A DNA stretch of 42,970 nt from Ignavibacteriota bacterium. GTDB lineage: Bacteria; Bacteroidota; Ignavibacteria; UBA10030. Shown here in pieces: positions 1,415 to 9,887 of the stretch. Location: positions 31,249 to 74,218 of the forward strand of contig PMZI01000056.1 in assembly GCA_003170475.1 (NCBI GenBank). The letters run 5' to 3'. The number at the start of each line of letters is the position of its first letter. The stretch's first letter is position 1. A program made the position numbers and the translations under genes. The notes under the pieces are model-generated. The model had not been told where the DNA came from. It was given only the letters and a program-made list of their open reading frames with translations, and did no database searches.

Positions 1415-1912
1415 GGCGTGACCTCCTTCCCAAATTCAATCTCACACACGTGCTTGAGATACAATAGACAAAGGCTGTGCCAATATGCGACTTGTCGCAA
1501 AATGGGCCGATTGTCAATCATGACGATCGCCCGCATGTATCGAAGTGATTATCACGCACTGGATTGAGATAGTGTTACAGATTGAGACGAACTGAGATAG
1601 TGGTCACTGCACAGTGTTATTCTTACGAGGACGGATCTGCTGCTGGAAAGATGTCAGTTTAGGTTCGGGCTGGGTCAGAAGCGTGGGAATGAGGACATTG
1701 TGCGAAGCAACTTCGAACACGTTTCAGAAGAGATTCTTCCACCGAGAAACGCTCCGCTCAATGACTCTCCCATAGGTCAGGATTTCGTCAGCGGGATCTC
1801 ATTTCGCGGTATGCGCCGAGGCAGCGTTTCAGCATCATGTGAAGAACGGTGATATTCTTTCTCCGGCCCTCCAATTCAACTTCTAATAGGAGATCTTGTA
1901 TTCGGAAAGGCA
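1415..1912. other. Spacer without a recognisable gene
   Basis: About 500 bases between two minus-strand genes. Apart from the ribosome binding site at 1421-1430 and the short direct repeats at 1565-1602, no supported coding sequence, RNA gene or terminator was recognised. The short reading frames here overlap each other in several frames and look like noise. Confidence 0.4.
1565..1602. repeat. Short direct repeats TGAGATAGTG, possible mobile-element end
   Basis: TGAGATAGTG occurs at 1565-1574 and again at 1593-1602, with a related ATTGAGACGA at 1581-1590 between them. Serial copies of 'TTGAGAC/TGAGATAG'-type words remind one of the multiple terminal repeats of IS21-like elements, but no transposase (IstA/IstB) reading frame or second end is visible. 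This is at most a solo or decayed end. Confidence 0.25.
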
Positions 1913-2566
1913 CTAGCAACCCTCCTTTTTCTTCTTTCCGGGGGCGGCCTTGGATTGAGCTCCTGCTGGAGCTTCGAGTTTTGGCATAGAAAGTTTTGGA
2001 GTCGCTGATTCCACTGCTCCACCCGACTGCGGAGTGCCGCCGAAAAACTTGCTGACTTCTTTGGTCCTCGCGAACTCAACGACTTGTGCCGGCGTGGGGC
2101 TCTCAGGAATACGCGGGAACAGAATCTGGTCTTTCCACTCTTCTAGTCCGCCTCGCAGAATGTACACTCCCCTAAATCCCTTCGCCTTGAGAAGCATCCA
2201 CGCCTGGGCAGAATGAATCCCGCCATCGGAGTAAAGGATAATCTTCTCATTCCGTTGGAGATTGGATTGATCAAGGCCGCTCAGCGCAATGTTGTCCGAT
2301 GAAGGGATATGATACTCCGCGAAATCTTTCTCATTGCGGAGATCGATCAAACGAAAGTCCGATTTCCCCCGGATGATCCAATCCGCTAGCATCTGGACGC
2401 TGACATGATCCACTTCTTTCTCAACGATCAGTGCCAACTCCTTTGCGTTCACCGTAGCTTCCGAACCATGATATGGACTTCCCGCAAACAGTGCGAAGAA
2501 GCCGAGAACAAACGCGAGGAGACCGAGCTTCCTGTTCAACGATAGATTCTTAAGAAAGTCTCTCAT
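1913..2566 (-). CDS. Membrane-anchored rhodanese-like protein lacking the catalytic Cys
   Basis: The 217-residue product has a membrane anchor or uncleaved signal (about residues 13-29), a rhodanese domain (about 52-148) and a Pro/Ala/Lys-rich tail ending in KKKKEGC. Rhodanese landmarks are 'FRLIDLRNEKDFAEYHIP' and 'YILRGGLEEWK'. The loop that normally reads Cys-x-x-Gly-x-Arg-Ser is 'YSDGGIHS' here, so the sulfur-accepting Cys is replaced by Ser113. Thiosulfate:cyanide sulfurtransferase activity by the usual mechanism is therefore unlikely; binding or scaffold roles are possible. The ATG overlaps the stop of the preceding transporter gene by 4 bp, and the gene is last in the psr operon. A longer upstream frame exists but lies inside that transporter gene. 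Confidence 0.85.
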   Translation of the reverse strand: MRDFLKNLSLNRKLGLLAFVLGFFALFAGSPYHGSEATVNAKELALIVEKEVDHVSVQMLADWIIRGKSDFRLIDLRNEKDFAEYHIPSSDNIALSGLDQSNLQRNEKIILYSDGGIHSAQAWMLLKAKGFRGVYILRGGLEEWKDQILFPRIPESPTPAQVVEFARTKEVSKFFGGTPQSGGAVESATPKLSMPKLEAPAGAQSKAAPGKKKKEGC

Positions 2567-3174
2567 AGTGAGGCTCCTGCTTTCTTTGAAGCCATCTTTT
2601 TTTCGACCCATTCGGCACCGACAAATCCACCAAGCGCCATCAGAACGACAAGAAATACCAGAAGACCATAGGGCAATCCCGTGAGTTGTGGCAGCGTGAT
2701 TTGTCCCATAGGAGTGGATAGATAGAAATTGCTGACGAGCGGGAATACTTCCCCGAACACTAGGATGCCGAACATGATGCCGCCAAGATACACCATCGCG
2801 TCGATGCGGCCTGTCGCAACTGCCACGCAGGATGTTCCCGGACAATAGCCTCCGATCACGAATCCAAATCCGAGAAGCAATCCTCCGACCACCTGCGGCA
2901 GGAGAAACGTCGGAGTAAGATAGACAAGGGAGAGATCGACAAAACCGATCACCGATAGATAATATAGACCGACCATGGCCGTGATGATCGCGGTAAACAT
3001 CACTTTGAACACTGTGAGATCGGTAAAATAGAACTGGGCAGCCAGTTTCTTTGCGCTGTTGAATCCCCCGCGCTCGAGGAAGAACCCAAAGCCGATGCCG
3101 GTGATGAAAGCAACCACGAGGCTCACATCGTCTCCGAAGAGACCATATTTGAAGAAGGGTGCGATCATTGCCAT
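2563..3174 (-). CDS. YeeE/YedE-family sulfur transporter, second half-size protein
   Basis: A 203-residue, strongly hydrophobic protein with about five or six membrane helices. It carries 'ERGGFNSAKKL' near the N-terminus (about residues 34-44) and 'GYCPGTSCVAVATGRIDA' in the middle, a Cys-containing signature of the YeeE/YedE (DUF395, sulphur transport) family. Family members of the TsuA type move thiosulfate through paired Cys-containing half-repeats. Here the two halves are separate genes. It overlaps the first half-size gene by 10 bp and the rhodanese gene by 4 bp, so translation is probably coupled. Substrate (thiosulfate or a related sulfur species) is inferred from family and operon. 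Confidence 0.88.
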   Translation of the reverse strand: MAMIAPFFKYGLFGDDVSLVVAFITGIGFGFFLERGGFNSAKKLAAQFYFTDLTVFKVMFTAIITAMVGLYYLSVIGFVDLSLVYLTPTFLLPQVVGGLLLGFGFVIGGYCPGTSCVAVATGRIDAMVYLGGIMFGILVFGEVFPLVSNFYLSTPMGQITLPQLTGLPYGLLVFLVVLMALGGFVGAEWVEKKMASKKAGASL

Positions 3175-3698
3175 TGTCTCCTTACAAAGTACGCCATTGC
3201 ATATGCCCCGCCGAACACCATCATCATGAAAGCCCAGCTGCCGACATTAAAGAGCGCTCCACCGGTGAGTGCCTGACCGCTGGTACAACCTCTGGCCAGT
3301 TTCGCGCCAATCCCCATCAAGCCACCTCCTGCAAATGCGAAGAGAAGCCGGCCGCGCGTGGAAATGTTGGGTCCCTTCTCTACGACTTTGGTTACACGAT
3401 GAGCGAGCGAGCCGGAGATAAATCCACCGACGAAGACCCCGAGGACCTCGAAGACAAGCCAGTCTTTCAGCGGACTCTTCGTCCCATCGCCGATATACTC
3501 TGAATAAAACTCATTGTGCGCCACATGGATTGGTGCCACCGCCTGCACGCCCACCGTTACGAGCGATGAGAATGCTCCGGATGCGCCCAACCCGCGCCCC
3601 ATGACGACAAACGACGCAAGCAGGACCAGGCCCAGGCCTATGCCGGCAACATAAGGGTTCCAGTACGGCTGAGGGTGTTTTTCAACTTGTAGTGACAT
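3165..3698 (-). CDS. YeeE/YedE-family sulfur transporter, first half-size protein
   Basis: A 177-residue membrane protein carrying the other YeeE signature, 'ARGCTSGQALTGGALF' (about residues 136-151), and about four or five hydrophobic segments. With the following gene it reconstitutes the two Cys-containing halves found in a full-length YeeE/TsuA protein. The start chosen is the ATG at 3698 (M-S-L-Q), because AAGGAG at 3706-3711 is 7 nt upstream; an ATG at 3704 would leave only 1 nt. The ribosome binding site touches the stop codon of the upstream NrfD/PsrC gene, so the genes are tightly packed. It probably supplies sulfur substrate or returns product for the reductase encoded upstream. Confidence 0.88.
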   Translation of the reverse strand: MSLQVEKHPQPYWNPYVAGIGLGLVLLASFVVMGRGLGASGAFSSLVTVGVQAVAPIHVAHNEFYSEYIGDGTKSPLKDWLVFEVLGVFVGGFISGSLAHRVTKVVEKGPNISTRGRLLFAFAGGGLMGIGAKLARGCTSGQALTGGALFNVGSWAFMMMVFGGAYAMAYFVRRQWQ

Positions 3699-3705
3699 GC
3701 ACATT

Positions 3706-3711
3706 CTCCTT
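3706..3711 (-). promoter_or_regulatory. Ribosome binding site deciding the start of the first YeeE gene
   Basis: On the minus strand this reads AAGGAG. It is 7 nt before the ATG at 3698 and only 1 nt before the alternative ATG at 3704, which favours the shorter protein. Confidence 0.65.
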
Positions 3712-4661
3712 TATCGAATCCATCCTGATGTCCAATGACTTTCCTGTCCTGCGAAGACGATCACAAATCGAAGGATGAGACCCCCGGCGATGACGAGCAT
3801 CGGAGCCACCGGGGAATGCTTTATTTTATGATTCACCGCGAGAAGTTGGATCGAGAGGGGAACAACCACCCCCAATCCGATGACAAATACCCAGAAGTAT
3901 GCTGCATACGATCCATCAAGGAGCAGTCGAATGGCCTGAATGTGGACACGCGTCGATGTCAGCAATCCGCTGATGAACCCTCCGAAAGCAAAAAGCTCGA
4001 GAGTCAGGAAAGCGTTGTCAGCTTTGGCAAGCAACTCCCGTTCATATGCGTCATCTGTGATCAGATGGACGAATGCAGCGGCAGAGGAAAGTCCGGAAAC
4101 GAGAAACAGCATCCAGAGCATTGCGCTGTTCCAAAGCGGCCGCGCTCCCAGCGAACTCAGGAGCACTCCCGTGTACATTCCCAGAAGCGTCCCCACGAAC
4201 ATGTTGAGGATTCCGATATTCTTGATCAACACAGGGTGCTTGTTGATGAACGCAGAGAGTCGGTCGAAAAGGGGAATCACGTTTTGAAAACGTTCCGGTA
4301 TCCGGATCAATGTATTCAGAAAGAGGACTGGATAGATGATAACGAGAATCCATGCACCCCATGACATGGGTGAGGTGATCTTGAACGTCGTATACAATCG
4401 CCAAACAGAGAGCTTGTGCTCGAGATCAAGGAACAGCGCAAGCATACCCGCACTCAGCAGAATCAGGCTGATCTGCGGCAAGTAGAAACACGAGAAGACG
4501 TTCTTCTTGTACTGACCCTTCAGAACGAGGTAACCCGAGATGATCATAATGCCGGCGACCAATCCGCCGATGAAGAGGTAGATGGGAATCTGCCAGCCCC
4601 AGATTTGCAACGTGGGATCGATGAGTTCGTTGTGGCGCGTTGTCGTCAGTTCCTGGATCAT
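3711..4661 (-). CDS. psrC: NrfD/PsrC-type membrane subunit of a polysulfide/thiosulfate reductase-like complex
   Basis: A 316-residue integral membrane protein with about eight hydrophobic helices. It starts with a short soluble lead, then 'WGWQIPIYLFIGGLVAGIMIISG', typical of the NrfD/PsrC family. Such subunits anchor a molybdopterin/iron-sulfur pair and exchange electrons with menaquinol. The conserved 'SWGAW' (about residues 99-103) and 'LLSSLGARPLWNSAMLW' region support the call. It follows the iron-sulfur subunit gene after only a few bases and precedes the YeeE pair. It could equally be named PhsC or simply NrfD; the exact electron acceptor cannot be read from this subunit. Confidence 0.9.
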   Translation of the reverse strand: MIQELTTTRHNELIDPTLQIWGWQIPIYLFIGGLVAGIMIISGYLVLKGQYKKNVFSCFYLPQISLILLSAGMLALFLDLEHKLSVWRLYTTFKITSPMSWGAWILVIIYPVLFLNTLIRIPERFQNVIPLFDRLSAFINKHPVLIKNIGILNMFVGTLLGMYTGVLLSSLGARPLWNSAMLWMLFLVSGLSSAAAFVHLITDDAYERELLAKADNAFLTLELFAFGGFISGLLTSTRVHIQAIRLLLDGSYAAYFWVFVIGLGVVVPLSIQLLAVNHKIKHSPVAPMLVIAGGLILRFVIVFAGQESHWTSGWIR

Positions 4662-4665
4662 GGGA

Positions 4666-5205
4666 TCACACGAGATAGAAGATACATGGTTTCGTTCCGG
4701 CCTCGGGAATCAGGGCATGGTGGTTGCGGGACTCCAGCAACCGCGTAACGTCGCTATTTGGATCCTCAAGATCGCCGAACGACATGCAGTGTGTCGGACA
4801 GACGGAGACACACGCAGGATCAAGTCCCTTCTCGACACGGTGGATGCAGAACGTGCATTTGTCAGCGTAGCCATCGGGATGGATGAACCGCGCGTCGTAG
4901 GGACACGAGGCAATACAAGCCTTGCAGCCAATGCACACGTTGTGCTCGACGAGTACGACTCCACCAAGGTCATGGACGTGACTCGCACCGGTGGGGCAAC
5001 AATAGACGCAGGGTGGATTGCTGCAATGATTACACCGCTCCGATCGGATCTCCATGTGAAGCGATGGATATTTTCCCTGCACCTCATATTCGATCCAATC
5101 CCGATTCAACCCTTCCGGAACACTGTTCTCGGTCTTGCACGCCACAACGCAATCCATACAGCCAACGCACTTCGCAGTATCGATGACCATTCCGAATCTA
5201 GCCAT
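4666..5205 (-). CDS. psrB: Four-cluster ferredoxin-like electron transfer subunit (PsrB/PhsB/DmsB family)
   Basis: A 179-residue protein with four Cys groups for [4Fe-4S] clusters: 'CVGCMDCVVAC' (residues 13-23), 'CNHCSNPPCVYCCP', 'CIGCKACIASCP' and 'CTFC...ACVSVCP'. This is the arrangement of the electron-transfer subunit of DMSO-reductase-family complexes, passing electrons between the membrane subunit and the molybdenum subunit. It has no signal peptide and would be carried across the membrane with the Tat-exported PsrA subunit, as known for this family. Its start overlaps the end of psrA by 8 bp, indicating coupled translation. Confidence 0.95.
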   Translation of the reverse strand: MARFGMVIDTAKCVGCMDCVVACKTENSVPEGLNRDWIEYEVQGKYPSLHMEIRSERCNHCSNPPCVYCCPTGASHVHDLGGVVLVEHNVCIGCKACIASCPYDARFIHPDGYADKCTFCIHRVEKGLDPACVSVCPTHCMSFGDLEDPNSDVTRLLESRNHHALIPEAGTKPCIFYLV

Positions 5206-7405
5206 GGCTGGCCTCCGATTCGATAGTCACGAAGTTGACGTTCATGCCGGTCCCTCCCATCAGTGGATCGGTAACATAGCGGGTCAGAAGTTGGGCGTCG
5301 CTTGCTCCCTTCTGAAATGCGTATTTGAGACCGCGAGAATTGTGACCAAATCCGTGCACCATGTACACACAGTCCGGCCGGATCCGCTCGGTCGCCTTCA
5401 CCTTCACCTTGTTGCTGACGATGTTGTCCTGATTCTTCAGACGGACGTAGTCTCCGGTTTTCAGTTCCATACGACGTGCGACATCGGCATTGATCCAAAT
5501 CTCATTTTCAGCCACCATATCCATGAGGATATGATTCGACTGGGTTCTGCTGAAGGAATGAACGGGCGAACGGCCATACAGGAGCCGGAAGGAACCCAGC
5601 GGACCCGGCAGCGGGCGTCTGTATTTTGGCACCGGATCAAATCCGGCTTTGGCAAGTTGAAGTGAATAGAATTCAATTTTCCCTGATGGCGTCGGAAACT
5701 GTGCCGAGACCCCCTCATCAAAGTAGATTGGCTGCTTGCTCCCTCTGAGAATTCCCTTCTTCTTCAGCTCGTCAAAACTCAGGCCGGCTGTAGTGAGGCG
5801 ATGGATGATGTACTCCTCGATGTCTTTCCACGGATAGAAGGCTCCAAGATCAAGTTTCTCGGCGAGTTTCTTCGCCATCCACCAGTTCGGTTTCTGATCA
5901 TGGGGAGACTCGACAACCGGCTGTCGCAAGGCAACAAAAGGCTCCCGGAACCACTCTACGTTGATGTCGTCGTAGCGTTCAAGATAGACGGACTCAGGAA
6001 GAACGACATCCGCCCATCCGGCAATCTCGCTGGGTATGACATCGACCACGACAAGAAGGTCGAGGTTCTGGATTGCCTTGATTGTCTCTGCTTCATTCGG
6101 CAGCGCGTGGATCAGGTTGGTTGCATACACGAACCAGCTTTTGATTGGATATGGCTTGCCGCTGATCGTCGCCTCACGAATACCTGTGGTGATGGTCTCA
6201 TGCGCAAACGGATATTTGTTATCCGGATTGTCCACTTTTGCTTTTTCTGGCTTGGGATACGCCGGATAGGGGTAGCCCGCGACATCCATACTCACGGGAT
6301 AGAAGAATCCGCCTTTGCGACCCCAACTTCCGAGCAAGGCATTCAGAAGTGCGATGGCACGGCTCCGTTGCGCATCATCTCCGTACCACGTCACATGTCG
6401 TCCCGGATGGACGAGTGTCGCCGGCCGATAGCGAGCCATTTCACGCGCAGTTGTTCGAATCAACTCCGGTTCGATGCCAGTCTCCGGATATGCCCACTCC
6501 GGCGTGTACGGCGTAAGTTCCGCCGCGAATTGCTCAAATCCGAACCCGTATTTCTGCACATAGTCTTTGTCGTACAGACCTTCTTTGACGATCACATTCA
6601 TCCATGCGAGGAGAAGTGCCAGGTCGGTGCCGGGCTTGATCGGGAGATAGAACTTCGCCTTGCTGGCAGCAACGGAAAATCTCGGGTCGACCACGATGAT
6701 GGAAGCCCCATTCCCCACCGCTTCAGCGAACTCCTGAACTTGCGAATTGTGCATGTTCTCGCCGAGGTGACTTCCGATGAGAACGAGACATTGAGAGTTC
6801 TTGATGTCTGTTCGTTCCGGCGAGCTGACGTCTTCGCCGAAGGTGAGACGAAAGCCGACGTCCCGTGGTCCGCGGCACTGAGCGAATGACGGGGCAGTGA
6901 TGTTGGGTGTTCCGAACGCTTTCAGCGTGTGTTTGAAGAAATTTCCACCGATGCCATGAGCGAAGAGAGCGACAGCCTCAGGGCCGTACTGGGCTTTGAT
7001 CTTTTGCAGTTTGTCGGCGATATGCGTGAAAGCTTCGTCCCATGTAACCTCAACCCACTCTTCGCGTCCGCGTTCGCTTCTACGTATCAGAGGTGACTTG
7101 AGACGGTCTGGATCGTAATGTGCGCCAACGCCTCCGGTGCCACGTGGGCAGAGCCTGCCTCGGCTCAATGGATCTTCGAGGTTTCCTTCGAGCTTCCACA
7201 ACTTTCCATCGTTGACATAGGCGATAGCACCGCACTTCCAAAAGCAGATGTCACAATATGTGGGAATCTTTTGAACGCCCTTCACTTCTTTGCCCGACTT
7301 GTTGCCGAGTGCTTCAGCCCCCTTCACGATCGCACTGCCTGCTGCCGCAACACTTATCGTAGCGGCTGAGATCTTGAGGAATTTCCGGCGGGACACTGGA
7401 TTCAT
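5198..7405 (-). CDS. psrA: Molybdopterin oxidoreductase catalytic subunit, polysulfide/thiosulfate reductase-like
   Basis: A 735-residue DMSO-reductase-superfamily enzyme with a twin-arginine signal (SRRKFLK, residues 5-11), so it should be exported folded. Cys51, Cys54, Cys58 and Cys86 ('CDICFWKC...LCPRG') match the N-terminal [4Fe-4S] site. Cys177 in 'SFAQCRGPRD' sits where PsrA/PhsA-type enzymes use Cys as molybdenum ligand. The C-terminal molybdopterin-binding domain ('LLYGRSPVHSFSRTQSN', 'ELKTGDYVRLKNQ') is present. Length fits PsrA/PhsA (about 730-760). Companion YeeE transporters and rhodanese favour a sulfur substrate, but tetrathionate, arsenate or selenate cannot be excluded from sequence alone. 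Its ATG overlaps the regulator's stop by 4 bp. Confidence 0.92.
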   Translation of the reverse strand: MNPVSRRKFLKISAATISVAAAGSAIVKGAEALGNKSGKEVKGVQKIPTYCDICFWKCGAIAYVNDGKLWKLEGNLEDPLSRGRLCPRGTGGVGAHYDPDRLKSPLIRRSERGREEWVEVTWDEAFTHIADKLQKIKAQYGPEAVALFAHGIGGNFFKHTLKAFGTPNITAPSFAQCRGPRDVGFRLTFGEDVSSPERTDIKNSQCLVLIGSHLGENMHNSQVQEFAEAVGNGASIIVVDPRFSVAASKAKFYLPIKPGTDLALLLAWMNVIVKEGLYDKDYVQKYGFGFEQFAAELTPYTPEWAYPETGIEPELIRTTAREMARYRPATLVHPGRHVTWYGDDAQRSRAIALLNALLGSWGRKGGFFYPVSMDVAGYPYPAYPKPEKAKVDNPDNKYPFAHETITTGIREATISGKPYPIKSWFVYATNLIHALPNEAETIKAIQNLDLLVVVDVIPSEIAGWADVVLPESVYLERYDDINVEWFREPFVALRQPVVESPHDQKPNWWMAKKLAEKLDLGAFYPWKDIEEYIIHRLTTAGLSFDELKKKGILRGSKQPIYFDEGVSAQFPTPSGKIEFYSLQLAKAGFDPVPKYRRPLPGPLGSFRLLYGRSPVHSFSRTQSNHILMDMVAENEIWINADVARRMELKTGDYVRLKNQDNIVSNKVKVKATERIRPDCVYMVHGFGHNSRGLKYAFQKGASDAQLLTRYVTDPLMGGTGMNVNFVTIESEASHG

Positions 7406-7869
7406 TTCACCCTCGTGAGGTTCGTAATACTCGCCTTAATCTTGTCGCAGTCGCTGGAGAGGTGATAGACTTCGCATGACCGGCAGTCCAGTTTCGTGCA
7501 TGCGTTGTGCTCGTGGTCGTATGTCCAGCACGGCTGCGCGTGGCCAGAGAAGGCGGGACATTTTTTCCGATTGGAATCGGAGCATTGCACAATATCCCAG
7601 CACGGAATCATTGAATAAATCTTTCGGATTCCAGCGATGCTGAGCTTCTCTTCGTTAATCCCGTGGCGAATGCACTTGAGCCGTTCGATATCCGATTGAG
7701 AATACAGCCTGTGAGTGGAGGCGGCTTTGTGCGAAATGATCAGCCCCTCGCGTTCATACATACGCAAGGTGAAAACCGATACGCCAAGCATGCGGGCGAC
7801 TGTTCCAATCGAATACATCGGAACATCGGTTGTGGGCGGTGTACGGAGTTCGTCTCTCATATTTGACAT
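7402..7869 (-). CDS. MerR-family regulator with a cysteine-rich C-terminal domain
   Basis: A 155-residue protein. The N-terminal part is a MerR-type winged helix-turn-helix: 'MYSIGTVARMLGVSVFTLRMYEREGLI' and 'HRLYSQSDIERLKCIRHGINEEKLSIAGIRKI'. The rest holds eight Cys in the pattern CWx4C, x7 C, x9 CW, x9 C, x4 C, x2 C, x8 C, resembling domains with two Cys-Trp pairs found after some MerR-like HTH domains; it could bind a metal or Fe-S cluster. It is the first gene of the psr operon, so it probably controls that operon and itself. Start is uncertain: ATG 7869 lies inside a palindrome, and ATG 7860 (M-R-D-E) is an equally plausible start. Neither has a good ribosome binding site. Confidence 0.88.
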   Translation of the reverse strand: MSNMRDELRTPPTTDVPMYSIGTVARMLGVSVFTLRMYEREGLIISHKAASTHRLYSQSDIERLKCIRHGINEEKLSIAGIRKIYSMIPCWDIVQCSDSNRKKCPAFSGHAQPCWTYDHEHNACTKLDCRSCEVYHLSSDCDKIKASITNLTRVK

Positions 7870-7883
7870 TTATAAATGTCAAC
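7864..7883. promoter_or_regulatory. Perfect 20-bp palindrome, probable operator of the psr operon
   Basis: TTGACATTTATAAATGTCAA is perfectly self-complementary and overlaps or lies just before the regulator's start codon. A dimeric MerR-type regulator would be expected to bind such a site. The divergent ECF sigma gene starts about 230 bp away on the other side. TTGACA occurs on both strands inside it, so it may also contain a -35 element; no clear -10 was identified. Confidence 0.6.
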
Positions 7884-8115
7884 TAATATGCCATCCACGA
7901 CTATAGGATTTATTAAGAAATTGAGAGGTCTGCGCGGGGCAATTCTCGCACATTGGAATCAGAAATCGGAAAAATTGAAACACTGGGAATTGTCATTTTG
8001 GGCACATTCGATGCGAAAATGTGGACGAAATTACCGAAGAGTGACTATCTTGCATCTGCACCGCAAGTCCTGATCCGAATCGTTGTCATAACAAGAGTAG
8101 ACCAGTCATTCCCGA

Positions 8116-8691
8116 ATGGATGAGCTCGAAATAATCCAAAAACTCAAACGTGGAGACGATGAGACTTTCCGACTGGTCGTGGAAAAGTATCAACGACTTG
8201 TGTTGAACTGCTCGTACAAGTTTTTGAGGGAAAGAGAATCGGCCGAGGACTTGACGCAGGAAGTATTCATGGAGGTCTTTGAGTCCATTTATTCCTTCCG
8301 GGGCAACGCTCAGCTATCGACATGGATCTACCGGATTGCAGTTACAAAATCTCTCAATCACCTGAAACACCTCAAGAGAAAGAAGCGCTTCGCACTGCTT
8401 GTCAGTCTGTTCGACAAAGACGAGACGGAAGAACGGTTTTCAATCCCCGAAGAGAAGAGCCCGCATCATGAACTGGAGAATCAGGAGAGAGCCGAGATCC
8501 TGCAGCGCGCGCTTGGAGCACTTCCCGACAATCAGAGAATTGCATTTACTCTCAGCAAGTTCGAAGAAATGAGCTATGAAGACATCGCTGGTGTGATGAA
8601 CACAAGCATTCCATCGGTAGAATCGCTGATCCACAGAGCGAAGACAAACCTGAAGAAGCGACTCTTGAACTATTATGAAACACATTCATAG
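8116..8691 (+). CDS. RNA polymerase sigma factor, ECF (sigma-70 group 4) type
   Basis: A 191-residue ECF sigma factor. Region 2 spans about residues 12-85, with 'ESAEDLTQEVFMEVFESIYSFRGNAQLSTWIYRIAVTKSLNHLK' characteristic of sigma-70 region 2. Region 4 spans about 125-180, with 'ALGALPDNQRIAFTLSKFEEMSYEDIAGVMNTSIPSVESLIHRAKTNLKKRL'. It is followed by a small membrane protein and a Spy/CpxP-like protein, suggesting control by an envelope signal. No cognate promoter motif could be recognised with confidence. No clear ribosome binding site precedes the ATG. Confidence 0.95.
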   Translation: MDELEIIQKLKRGDDETFRLVVEKYQRLVLNCSYKFLRERESAEDLTQEVFMEVFESIYSFRGNAQLSTWIYRIAVTKSLNHLKHLKRKKRFALLVSLFDKDETEERFSIPEEKSPHHELENQERAEILQRALGALPDNQRIAFTLSKFEEMSYEDIAGVMNTSIPSVESLIHRAKTNLKKRLLNYYETHS

Positions 8692-8709
8692 AGTGCACGA
8701 GGACCTGGC

Positions 8710-9024
8710 ATGAAGGATAGAAAGCGGTTGCTCGAAGAAGTTGAAAAAACATTACAGGCGTTCGATCATGATATTCCGCTCGAGGGGAATCCTTTCCTCG
8801 CGACCAGAATACAGGCCGAACGAGACCGCCGGCGTCAATTGCGCCCGACGGGATTCCGACTCCATATCAGCCTCAACCAGGCCATCATTCTCTGCGTCCT
8901 GCTTATCAATATCGTTACGGTGATTCATTACCTTGACTGGAACAGGAATCAGACTCTGCATGACAAACTGGTATTGGCGTTGAAAGAAGATGTTCAGATC
9001 GTTCAGTCGCAAGACCCCTTCTAA
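8710..9024 (+). CDS. Small single-pass membrane protein, candidate anti-sigma factor
   Basis: A 104-residue protein with a charged N-terminal cytoplasmic part (about 1-55), one hydrophobic helix (about 56-76, 'QAIILCVLLINIVTVIHYL') and a short exterior tail. It lies 18 nt after the sigma gene and 8 nt before the Spy-like gene, with GAGGA 7 nt upstream of the ATG. Position and topology fit an anti-sigma factor, but there is no HxxxCxxC zinc motif and no recognised anti-sigma domain. The role is inferred only from context. Confidence 0.75.
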   Translation: MKDRKRLLEEVEKTLQAFDHDIPLEGNPFLATRIQAERDRRRQLRPTGFRLHISLNQAIILCVLLINIVTVIHYLDWNRNQTLHDKLVLALKEDVQIVQSQDPF

Positions 9025-9032
9025 GCGAGGAT

Positions 9033-9887
9033 ATGATGGACCTGATAAATCAAAACAGATTCAGGAACTGGTTGATTGTGATCTTGTTGATCATCAATCT
9101 CCTGACAGTTTCCATTCTCTGGATGCAGACGGCGAGGACCAACGAACCACAACCTCAGCGACAGGACACCCGCGCATCCGAGTCTGTCGCTCTGCTGCGA
9201 AAAACCATTGATTTGAACGACGGACAGGCAAAACAATTCGATTCGATGCGGGCTGGTCAAATCGAGAAGTCGAAATCCTTTAACGATCAATTGGCTGCGT
9301 TGAAGAAGCAGCTGTCCGAAGAACTGTTCAAGGAACACCCCGATAGTTCGCAGGTGCGTTCGCTGACAGAGAACATCGGAAGCATCCAGTCGAAGGTGGA
9401 ACTGATTCGCTTCGAGTACTTCAAGGACCTGCTGGCGATCTGTACGCCGACTCAACGGGAAAAACTGAGACCAATCGTCACCGAGATTTTCGGCCGAAAG
9501 CCTCCGAAAGACGAACCGCAGGTCAAAGCTCCACGAAACGAGCGAAAAGAAAATCCTGAGCCACGCGACAAGGAGGCAAAGGAAAACGGCAACAATCCCC
9601 AAGTTCTTCGGGAGGAAAAGCCCAAGCCACCTTCAGCGGATGAAAAACTTGCGAAAATGTCCGAAAAACTGAGCCTGACAGCTGACCAGGAGCAAAAGAT
9701 TCGGGCGATTTTGACGACCACAATGAAAGAGGATCAGGAACTGAAAAAGAGAGTGAACCCTGATCGGAATGAGATTGAAACCGAAAAGGGGCGATTACGG
9801 AAAAAAGAAGATGACGCAATCATGAAGCTCCTCGATGAGAATCAAAAGAGGGAATTCTCAAGAATGATATTGAACAGAAGAAAATAG
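9033..9887 (+). CDS. Spy/CpxP-like periplasmic protein with membrane anchor
   Basis: A 284-residue protein with an N-terminal membrane anchor (about residues 13-31) and a highly charged, helical remainder. Two Spy/CpxP/ZraP-like units are visible: 'LLRKTIDLNDGQAKQFDSMR' with its following long helices (about 54-155), and 'LAKMSEKLSLTADQEQKIRAILT' (about 205-284). They are separated by a Lys/Glu/Pro/Asn-rich linker (about 160-200). Relatives sense metals or envelope stress, or act as periplasmic chaperones. ATG 9036 is an alternative start better spaced from GAGG at 9027-9030. As last gene of the sigma operon it may be either the stress sensor or an effector. Confidence 0.8.
   Translation: MMDLINQNRFRNWLIVILLIINLLTVSILWMQTARTNEPQPQRQDTRASESVALLRKTIDLNDGQAKQFDSMRAGQIEKSKSFNDQLAALKKQLSEELFKEHPDSSQVRSLTENIGSIQSKVELIRFEYFKDLLAICTPTQREKLRPIVTEIFGRKPPKDEPQVKAPRNERKENPEPRDKEAKENGNNPQVLREEKPKPPSADEKLAKMSEKLSLTADQEQKIRAILTTTMKEDQELKKRVNPDRNEIETEKGRLRKKEDDAIMKLLDENQKREFSRMILNRRK

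Follow-up and report, generated by a model that had tools for sequence, protein, structure and literature searches.

By what route sulfane sulfur passes the inner membrane, and whether it is handed on by a carrier directly to a YeeE-type channel, is an open question, and it is posed again by an operon of an Ignavibacteriota bacterium (GTDB lineage Bacteroidota, Ignavibacteria, UBA10030; assembly GCA_003170475.1). The stretch of DNA analysed, in the following called the window, comprises 42,970 nucleotides of contig PMZI01000056.1 (positions 31,249 to 74,218) and belongs to a genome of 4.08 Mb in 85 contigs. On its minus strand seven genes run from 7869 to 1913 in the order merR-psrA-psrB-psrC-yeeB-yeeA-"rhodanese", i.e. 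a regulator, a reductase, two halves of a transporter, and a last gene with a rhodanese fold. Judged from sequence comparisons, this last gene on balance probably encodes a membrane-anchored periplasmic sulfane-sulfur carrier that serves PsrABC and the split, PmpAB-like YeeE channel. Loci used for comparison are cited by their numbers (L037 and the like).

A rhodanese fold with a terminal cysteine

1913..2566, minus strand: putative Cys-tailed carrier (last gene), 217 aa; Pfam Rhodanese, 64 bits; Ser113 at the catalytic site; Cys217 the sole cysteine

The start at 2566 overlaps yeeA by ATGA, and a 310-aa open reading frame (ORF) starting at 2845, which extends back through yeeA, was rejected as the last gene. 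The protein consists of a membrane anchor, a rhodanese fold, and a Lys-rich tail of about 40 residues that ends with KKKKEGC. Its predicted structure (pLDDT 89.4) comprises an anchor helix (residues 11-29) and an alpha/beta domain and has no regular structure past 181, with the limitation that this model and alignment A2 begin one codon early, so that residue numbers are one above the true ones. The 50 PDB matches that Foldseek listed for the model are, by their titles, rhodanese-type proteins or domains. In the active-site loop LYSDGG, Ser113 stands at the catalytic position, where rhodaneses have their Cys, and among 54 aligned carriers this column holds Ser in 39, Gly in nine, Ala in three, and Cys, Asp and Phe in one each. 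By its fold the window carrier is thus a rhodanese, and by its catalytic residue it is not. Because the catalytic cysteine is absent, a working rhodanese enzyme was rejected as the main function of the gene. A preliminary description, made from the sequence alone, had termed the protein sulfur-carrier-like and of rhodanese fold, both of which are apt, the former having been given without a basis; the lost catalytic cysteine, the conserved terminal cysteine, and the mobility of the yeeB-yeeA-carrier unit (see below) had escaped it.

What is conserved instead is the cysteine at the end of the tail. Among 113 loci with matches to the module, 91 could be assigned a carrier beside or fused to yeeA, and 89 of these carriers are closed by a stop codon (L084 and L119 have none). 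Of the 89, 84 have a Cys as one of their last three residues, which becomes 81 of 86 when repeats are removed (L067 is the window itself, L126 equals L042, and L105 equals L047). Four of the five exceptions, with a frame change (L049), a TGA (L081) or a TAG (L091, L096), continue past the interruption as far as a terminal Cys; in L110 the end is masked by N. The 22 loci without an assigned carrier are nine of the small-genome family f24 together with L055, which ends at its contig edge, and L121 (all without a yeeA match), L069, L100, L112, L114 and L136, where the contig or locus ends, and L138, L139, L147, L111, L116 and L140. The sample of YeeB-like loci is biased, as it comprises the 80 best out of at least 522 relatives. 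The 54 aligned carriers were picked from those ending in Cys, and therefore the invariant Cys of that alignment is there by choice, the unselected count being the 84 of 89. Of these 54 proteins, 41 have no cysteine other than the terminal one.

As controls, none of 510 other ORFs of the module has a Cys within the last three residues, and among 21 more ORFs that match rhodanese and are closed by a stop only three have a Cys end, namely the carrier of L147, the second carrier of L056, and a fragment in L091; without these, the count is 0 of 18. A carrier-profile search in 148 genomes of the phylum gave, among the best 30 loci, a GC end in 25 of 25 matches beside yeeBA and in none of the five elsewhere, where it must be considered that 14 of the 25 come from genomes already in the sample and that the profile was built from rows with a Cys end. 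According to the labels of strains and metagenome-assembled genomes (MAGs), carriers with a readable end occur in Ignavibacteriota, Bacteroidota, Acidobacteriota, Gemmatimonadota, Calditrichota, Verrucomicrobiota, Myxococcota, Bdellovibrionota and Armatimonadota. Genes annotated as "rhodanese" that lie beside psrABC and YeeE halves and lack the rhodanese cysteine are better read as Cys-tailed carriers, and a C-terminal GC after a Lys-rich tail, adjoining Sulf_transp halves, can serve as a marker for the unit.

Some loci vary this pattern. In L138 and L139 a frame 3' of yeeA ends with KKREGC and has no rhodanese match, in L147 yeeA is split by a TGA and the carrier ends with KGC, and in L056 a second carrier in tandem (3628-4239, end PEGGC) lies right behind the first and is followed by two genes with rhodanese matches.

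Fusions, exchanged partners, and a relocated arm

In 18 loci the carrier is fused to YeeA, and the terminal GC is invariant in 16 of 16 aligned fusions (L091, which is interrupted, and L110 with its N were left out). The rhodanese domain with its catalytic loop is eroded in fused carriers such as those of L128, L131, L133, L137, L141 and L144, and the tail cysteine stays. When fusion is used as a label on the tree of 81 PsrA rows, three changes are needed and three are forced by well-supported branches, as determined with a quick method and SH-aLRT support only.

The genome of the window contains a second unit of this kind (L065:5668-10121, contig C37 of genome G000), which encodes a MerR paralogue with 55% identity, an octaheme cytochrome and a cytochrome b561, followed by YeeB and by a YeeA::carrier fusion with the end QGGC. 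The octaheme cytochrome scores 596 bits with TIGR04315 (cut-off 375) and 432 bits with PDB 1sp3, which we take to be the octaheme tetrathionate reductase (OTR) of Shewanella. An octaheme gene, a cytochrome b, yeeB and yeeA::carrier are found also in L142 and L146, and the latter three genes in L169, L170, L173, L174, L175 (with a broken yeeA frame) and L176, where the stretch is too short for a preceding gene. In other loci yeeB is preceded by a rhodanese with between one and three domains, as in Balneolaceae (L095, L102), in Ekhidna (L093), and in MAGs of Ignavibacteria or Bacteroidetes (L096, L106, L108, L118). The yeeB-yeeA-carrier set is a movable unit that occurs with other partners, and relatives of PsrA, octaheme cytochromes of the TIGR04315 family, and catalytic rhodaneses are all known to act on sulfane-sulfur compounds.

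The tail itself can also be found elsewhere. In all four genomes of one lineage it is PsrA that has an added Lys/Glu-rich tail ending with EEEEGGC (L209, 6139-8457, and L221, L222 and L223 with 97, 95 and 83% identity to it). The rhodanese beside a tailed PsrA, readable in L209, L229 and L230, has a catalytic Cys (IIFCKSGGRG, IVFCYKGGRG) and no terminal Cys, and YeeB is fused to cytochrome b561 in these loci (Pfam matches in L209 and L230). Four other PsrA proteins from the same search have no tail, and their adjoining carriers (L204, L231, L232, L233) end with GC. An arm either on a pseudo-rhodanese or on PsrA looks like two solutions to one requirement. This favours an arm that works over a relic of the fold, on the small basis of four closely related genomes. 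In L206, a carrier with the end GVGCS follows PsrA, PsrB and cytochrome b561, and there is no yeeBA.

The operon and its conservation

The carrier is preceded in the window by the following features.

7863..7882, no strand: perfect palindrome of 20 bp, TTGACATTTATAAATGTCAA, which overlaps merR at its first ATG; likely merR's own operator
7402..7869, minus strand: merR, MerR-type regulator, 155 aa; Pfam MerR_1, 62.5 bits
5198..7405, minus strand: psrA, PsrA/PhsA-type molybdopterin catalytic subunit, 735 aa; Pfam Molybdopterin, Molydop_binding and Fe4S4; twin-arginine start SRRKFLK
4666..5205, minus strand: psrB, PsrB-type four-cluster ferredoxin subunit; Pfam Fer4_11
3711..4661, minus strand: psrC, PsrC/NrfD-type membrane subunit; Pfam NrfD
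3165..3704, minus strand: yeeB, C-terminal half of a YeeE/TsuA transporter, PmpA-like; Sulf_transp positions 176-309
2563..3174, minus strand: yeeA, N-terminal half of a YeeE/TsuA transporter, PmpB-like; Sulf_transp positions 1-161

The genes are joined by overlaps of 4, 8, 10 and 4 bases and by gaps of 4 and 6 bases, so that the tight series of seven minus-strand genes seen in the preliminary description is borne out by coordinates and junctions, as are its gene families (MerR, PsrA/B/C-like, two half-size YeeE proteins, rhodanese fold) by Pfam. It had also proposed a search for the same gene order in other genomes. A PsrA at E <= 1e-100 was found in 34 of 296 sampled genomes of the phylum, and in all 18 genomes of the same class that have it, the own one included, the order psrABC-yeeB-yeeA-last gene is kept, with the last two genes fused in L043 and a frame change in the last gene of L049. 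This conservation of order is not chance. merR leads the operon in 17 of the 18, L037 being the exception. Four loci from outside the class (L052, L053, L054, L056) likewise have the six genes, and no merR was found in them. The closest PsrA in the tree of 81 rows from fetched loci is that of L068, an Ignavibacteriales MAG, with 95% identity.

Over 1500-8120, four promoter-like sites were found where 4.2 were expected from shuffles, and terminator-like sites (11, against 6.2 with a standard deviation of 2.4 in shuffles) were not used as evidence. Adjoining the operon, at 8116-9887 on the plus strand, an ECF-type sigma factor and a protein of the Metal_resist/LTXXQ family are encoded divergently.

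The reductase and the split transporter

PsrA of the window scores 714 bits with PDB 2vpw, listed as a thiosulfate reductase and presumably the Thermus polysulfide reductase, whereas the next PDB entry has 230 and ArrA 148. On the PhsA model it reaches 515 bits, which falls under the curated cut-off of 694, and the next model has 264, followed by ArrA with 165, YnfE/F with 150-156, and TtrA with 53. The operon also encodes an Fe-S subunit and an NrfD-type membrane subunit, as recognized by Pfam. By these scores PsrA is a Psr/Phs-type enzyme, and it cannot be read from the sequence whether polysulfide or thiosulfate is its substrate. An arsenate, selenate or tetrathionate reductase, each of which would have contradicted the preliminary description, was rejected on the profile and PDB scores, and the YeeE and rhodanese genes, whose absence from all related loci would have done the same, do occur in such loci.

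The occurrence of the transporter and carrier genes follows the relationship of PsrA. In the phylum of the Bryobacterales MAG L090, PsrA was found in 34 of 199 genomes, 20 of which were fetched (L200, L201 and L219 are the same genomes as L136, L144 and L090). With PsrA at 53-73% identity (L200-L205, L210, L219) yeeBA is present in eight of eight loci, and the carrier has a Cys among its last three residues in all seven reached by the contig. At 46-50% there are four loci, namely L206 with its carrier, L207 and L208 with neither, and L209 with the tailed PsrA. In the family f24, which appears to be Chlorobium-like, PsrA occurs in 11 genomes at 43-45% identity, and no yeeBA or carrier was found beside psrABC in the nine loci that were fetched (42-44%), of which six extend at least 3 kb and three less than 1 kb beyond psrC. 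It is thus one part of the PsrA family that is accompanied by the unit.

YeeB and YeeA are two complementary halves of Sulf_transp, with a predicted transport of thiosulfate or sulfane sulfur. The YeeA half alone gave nothing in the PDB at E <= 0.01, whereas the YeeB profile did match, and Cys140 of YeeB aligns with Cys293 of TsuA from Spirochaeta thermophila. According to the half assignment in the relevant part of PMC11582611, PmpA is the C half with Cys293 and PmpB the N half with Cys91, so that Cys111 of YeeA (in GGYCPGTS) is presumed to be the counterpart of Cys91. Both TsuA cysteines are called indispensable there (PMC11582611), and Cys293, Cys91 and Cys22 are described as lining up across the membrane (PMC11073785). 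The codon for the motif cysteine is TGC or TGT at 85 of 85 sites in yeeB and at 92 sites in yeeA, where it is TGA at two (L111, L147). No gene for a TusA-like YeeD is among the seven of the operon.

The two TGA codons (GGY*PGT), at L147:10839-10841 in a deltaproteobacterial MAG and in the region L111:1119-1121 of a Nitrospirae MAG, possibly encode selenocysteine. Short hairpins with GGUC in the loop lie 3' of both, their folding being no better than that of shuffles (z -0.77 and 0.31), and of the two genomes that of L111 has a SelA, whereas none was found in that of L147.

The regulator

The C-terminal domain of MerR has eight cysteines that are kept in 18 of 18 rows, two of them as Cys-Trp; the same alignment has nine all-Cys columns, one of which lies inside the DNA-binding part. 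A resemblance to a two-CW domain, noted by eye, was not confirmed (two_CW_domain with 10.3 bits at a cut-off of 35, E=0.69). The palindrome at 7863-7882 is the only site in the 4.08-Mb genome at up to three mismatches, a reversed control gave none, and the MerR paralogue on C37 is therefore without a copy. TTGAYATTTATAAATRTCAA was compared 5' of merR in 36 rows, of which eight, the window included, have it exactly, eight with one or two mismatches, and 20 with at least three. It is likely that the palindrome is the operator of merR itself, which would serve autoregulation. That import or product handling and reduction stand under one sensor, as had been suggested from the letters alone, is a fair reading of transport plus reduction under one regulator.

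A possible relay across the inner membrane

If the last gene encodes a carrier, the parts could work together as follows. PsrABC would draw electrons from the quinone pool and reduce sulfane sulfur (polysulfide or thiosulfate) on the outside of the inner membrane. The rhodanese fold of the carrier would be a docking body, and the single Cys on the tip of the Lys-rich arm would bind sulfur covalently, as a persulfide or thiosulfonate, in the fashion of the SoxY arm. This arm may ferry sulfur between a periplasmic sulfur enzyme, i.e. PsrA or, elsewhere, an octaheme cytochrome or a catalytic rhodanese, and the channel of YeeB and YeeA, where it would meet Cys140 of YeeB as the outer cysteine (TsuA Cys293). 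MerR would read the sulfur or redox state by its Cys-rich domain and regulate itself via the palindrome. By analogy to TsuA and SoxT, import is the more likely direction. In its full form, the system would be a portable trans-envelope relay, in which the arm Cys takes sulfane sulfur from whichever enzyme the operon has and passes it directly to the cysteine ladder of the split YeeE; this is proposed tentatively, as a possibility to be kept in sight and not as the expected outcome. In several lineages a single natural polypeptide comprises both the carrier and a channel half, and it offers one terminal cysteine for mutation.

Several observations weigh against this picture. The changes on the PsrA tree can be losses, so that gains of the fusion may number fewer than three, and the structural model of a YeeA::carrier fusion is too poor (pLDDT 69.8, pTM 0.50) for the domain to be positioned relative to the membrane. 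YeeBA without a carrier is seen in L111, L116 and L140, which together with the carrier of L206 means that the parts are not obligate for each other, and with PsrA at 37-38% identity (L211-L218) YeeBA and carrier are present in none of eight fetched loci, so PsrABC does not need them. MerR precedes psrA in 18 named carrier loci and not in 21 others with more than 1 kb upstream, 29 being undecidable. As to the periplasmic side, Lys and Arg are nearly balanced before and after the anchor helix (1.76 versus 1.72; more before than after in 18 of 54 carriers, and equal in another 18), and the loci L047, L048 and L105 of one Melioribacter group retain a Cys at the catalytic column.

The same data have to be weighed for other explanations. 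YeeBA and carrier might mainly signal to the Cys-rich MerR by passing a small sulfur species into the cell, like SoxT1B to SoxR, outside of the respiratory flux; SoxT1B, a YeeE-type protein, works as a signal transducer in Hyphomicrobium (PMC11582611). Also the eight conserved C-terminal cysteines of MerR and the position of the second unit of the own genome (L065) behind a MerR paralogue would agree with a signalling role, but the unit persists in L052, L053, L054 and L056 from other classes of the phylum, where merR was not found, and in the 21 carrier loci just mentioned without MerR, which makes signalling as the main function rather unlikely. A lone conserved Cys on a long flexible tail would fit a structural role as a tether, by a disulfide to PsrA or YeeB, as a metal ligand, or by lipidation, that holds the complex together, and this would account for conservation without catalysis. 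But YeeA fusions are already bound to the transporter and nevertheless keep the Cys, a similar tail moved onto PsrA is awkward for a lipid anchor, and octaheme cytochrome, rhodaneses and PsrA have sulfur chemistry in common and no obvious common binding partner, so that also a tether is unlikely.

An ordinary periplasmic rhodanese that feeds sulfane sulfur to PsrA could be concluded from the Pfam match of 64 bits with the rhodanese fold, from a published annotation as rhodanese-related sulfurtransferase (PMC6338057), and from the Psr operon of Desulfurivibrio dismutans, which is reported with a three-domain secreted rhodanese (PMC12142623, in the part on this operon). With the catalytic Cys missing in 53 of 54 aligned carriers, and with fused carriers (such as L128, L131, L133, L137, L141 and L144) in which the catalytic loop is eroded and the tail Cys kept, this is very improbable. 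The oxidative direction, in which PsrABC would oxidise sulfide to sulfane sulfur that is loaded on the carrier and imported, has its closest functional parallel in the SoxYZ-SoxT import of sulfur oxidisers, as that system is outlined in the literature, and is quite improbable with a PsrA that is closely akin to reductases and a YeeBA-carrier unit that also pairs with a member of the tetrathionate reductase family of octaheme cytochromes.

Relation to known systems

The operon as such is already published. In the section of Thiel et al. 2019 (PMC6338057) on Ca. Thermonerobacter thiotrophicus, a cluster of MerR, psrABC, two DUF395 genes for a sulfur transporter and a rhodanese is listed gene by gene with the consecutive numbers 004-010, i.e. 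the same seven genes in an order identical to that of the window, and its psrABC is given as most similar to psrABC of Melioribacter roseus and Ignavibacterium album. Since this cluster has been reported, the claim of the preliminary description that the seven-gene set with its own MerR is undescribed falls. In the passage on the cluster the last gene figures as a rhodanese-related sulfurtransferase, and no mention is made of the loss of its catalytic Cys, of a Cys at the end, of fusions, or of further partners (PMC6338057). In searches of an open-access library, subscription papers and supplements being outside their scope, no terminal-Cys pseudo-rhodanese or YeeE-carrier fusion was found, and as far as these searches show, it is the reading as a carrier that is new.

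With the known reductases PsrABC and PhsABC the window shares subunit set, order and family scores, and it differs in the transporter halves and the carrier downstream. The OTR family is represented in the own genome by the member upstream of the second YeeB-YeeA::carrier unit, which in comparison to PsrA is a reductase of another kind with no PsrABC adjoining; its tetrathionate name comes from TIGR04315 and its activity is predicted. SoxT1A and SoxT1B, TsuA, and PmpA and PmpB belong to the same Sulf_transp family as YeeB and YeeA, whose halves match PmpA and PmpB, but the window halves are split and are paired with a Cys-tailed carrier and with respiratory reductases.

The closest likeness to the carrier is SoxY. 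Its C-terminal motif GGCGG resembles the carrier ends GGCS (L133), GGCG (L142) and GGCSG (L131). Only Rhodanese was matched in the window carrier by Pfam at E <= 0.001, and SoxY was not, nor are SoxZ or SoxXAB among the seven genes of the operon. Unlike SoxY, the carrier has a rhodanese fold and is membrane-anchored or fused to a YeeE half, and on the strength of this comparison it is to be regarded as analogous and not homologous to SoxY. SoxYZ holds sulfur intermediates on the cysteine of a swinging arm, as stated in PMC5336275, and the carrier has its Cys at the end of a flexible arm, which is a likeness by analogy only. A cysteine-to-cysteine path from SoxY to SoxT has been called conceivable, with doubts about the distances, in the corresponding part of PMC11582611. 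If the relay proposed here exists, it would be a transfer like that from SoxYZ to SoxT in the form of one polypeptide, separately evolved on a pseudo-rhodanese.

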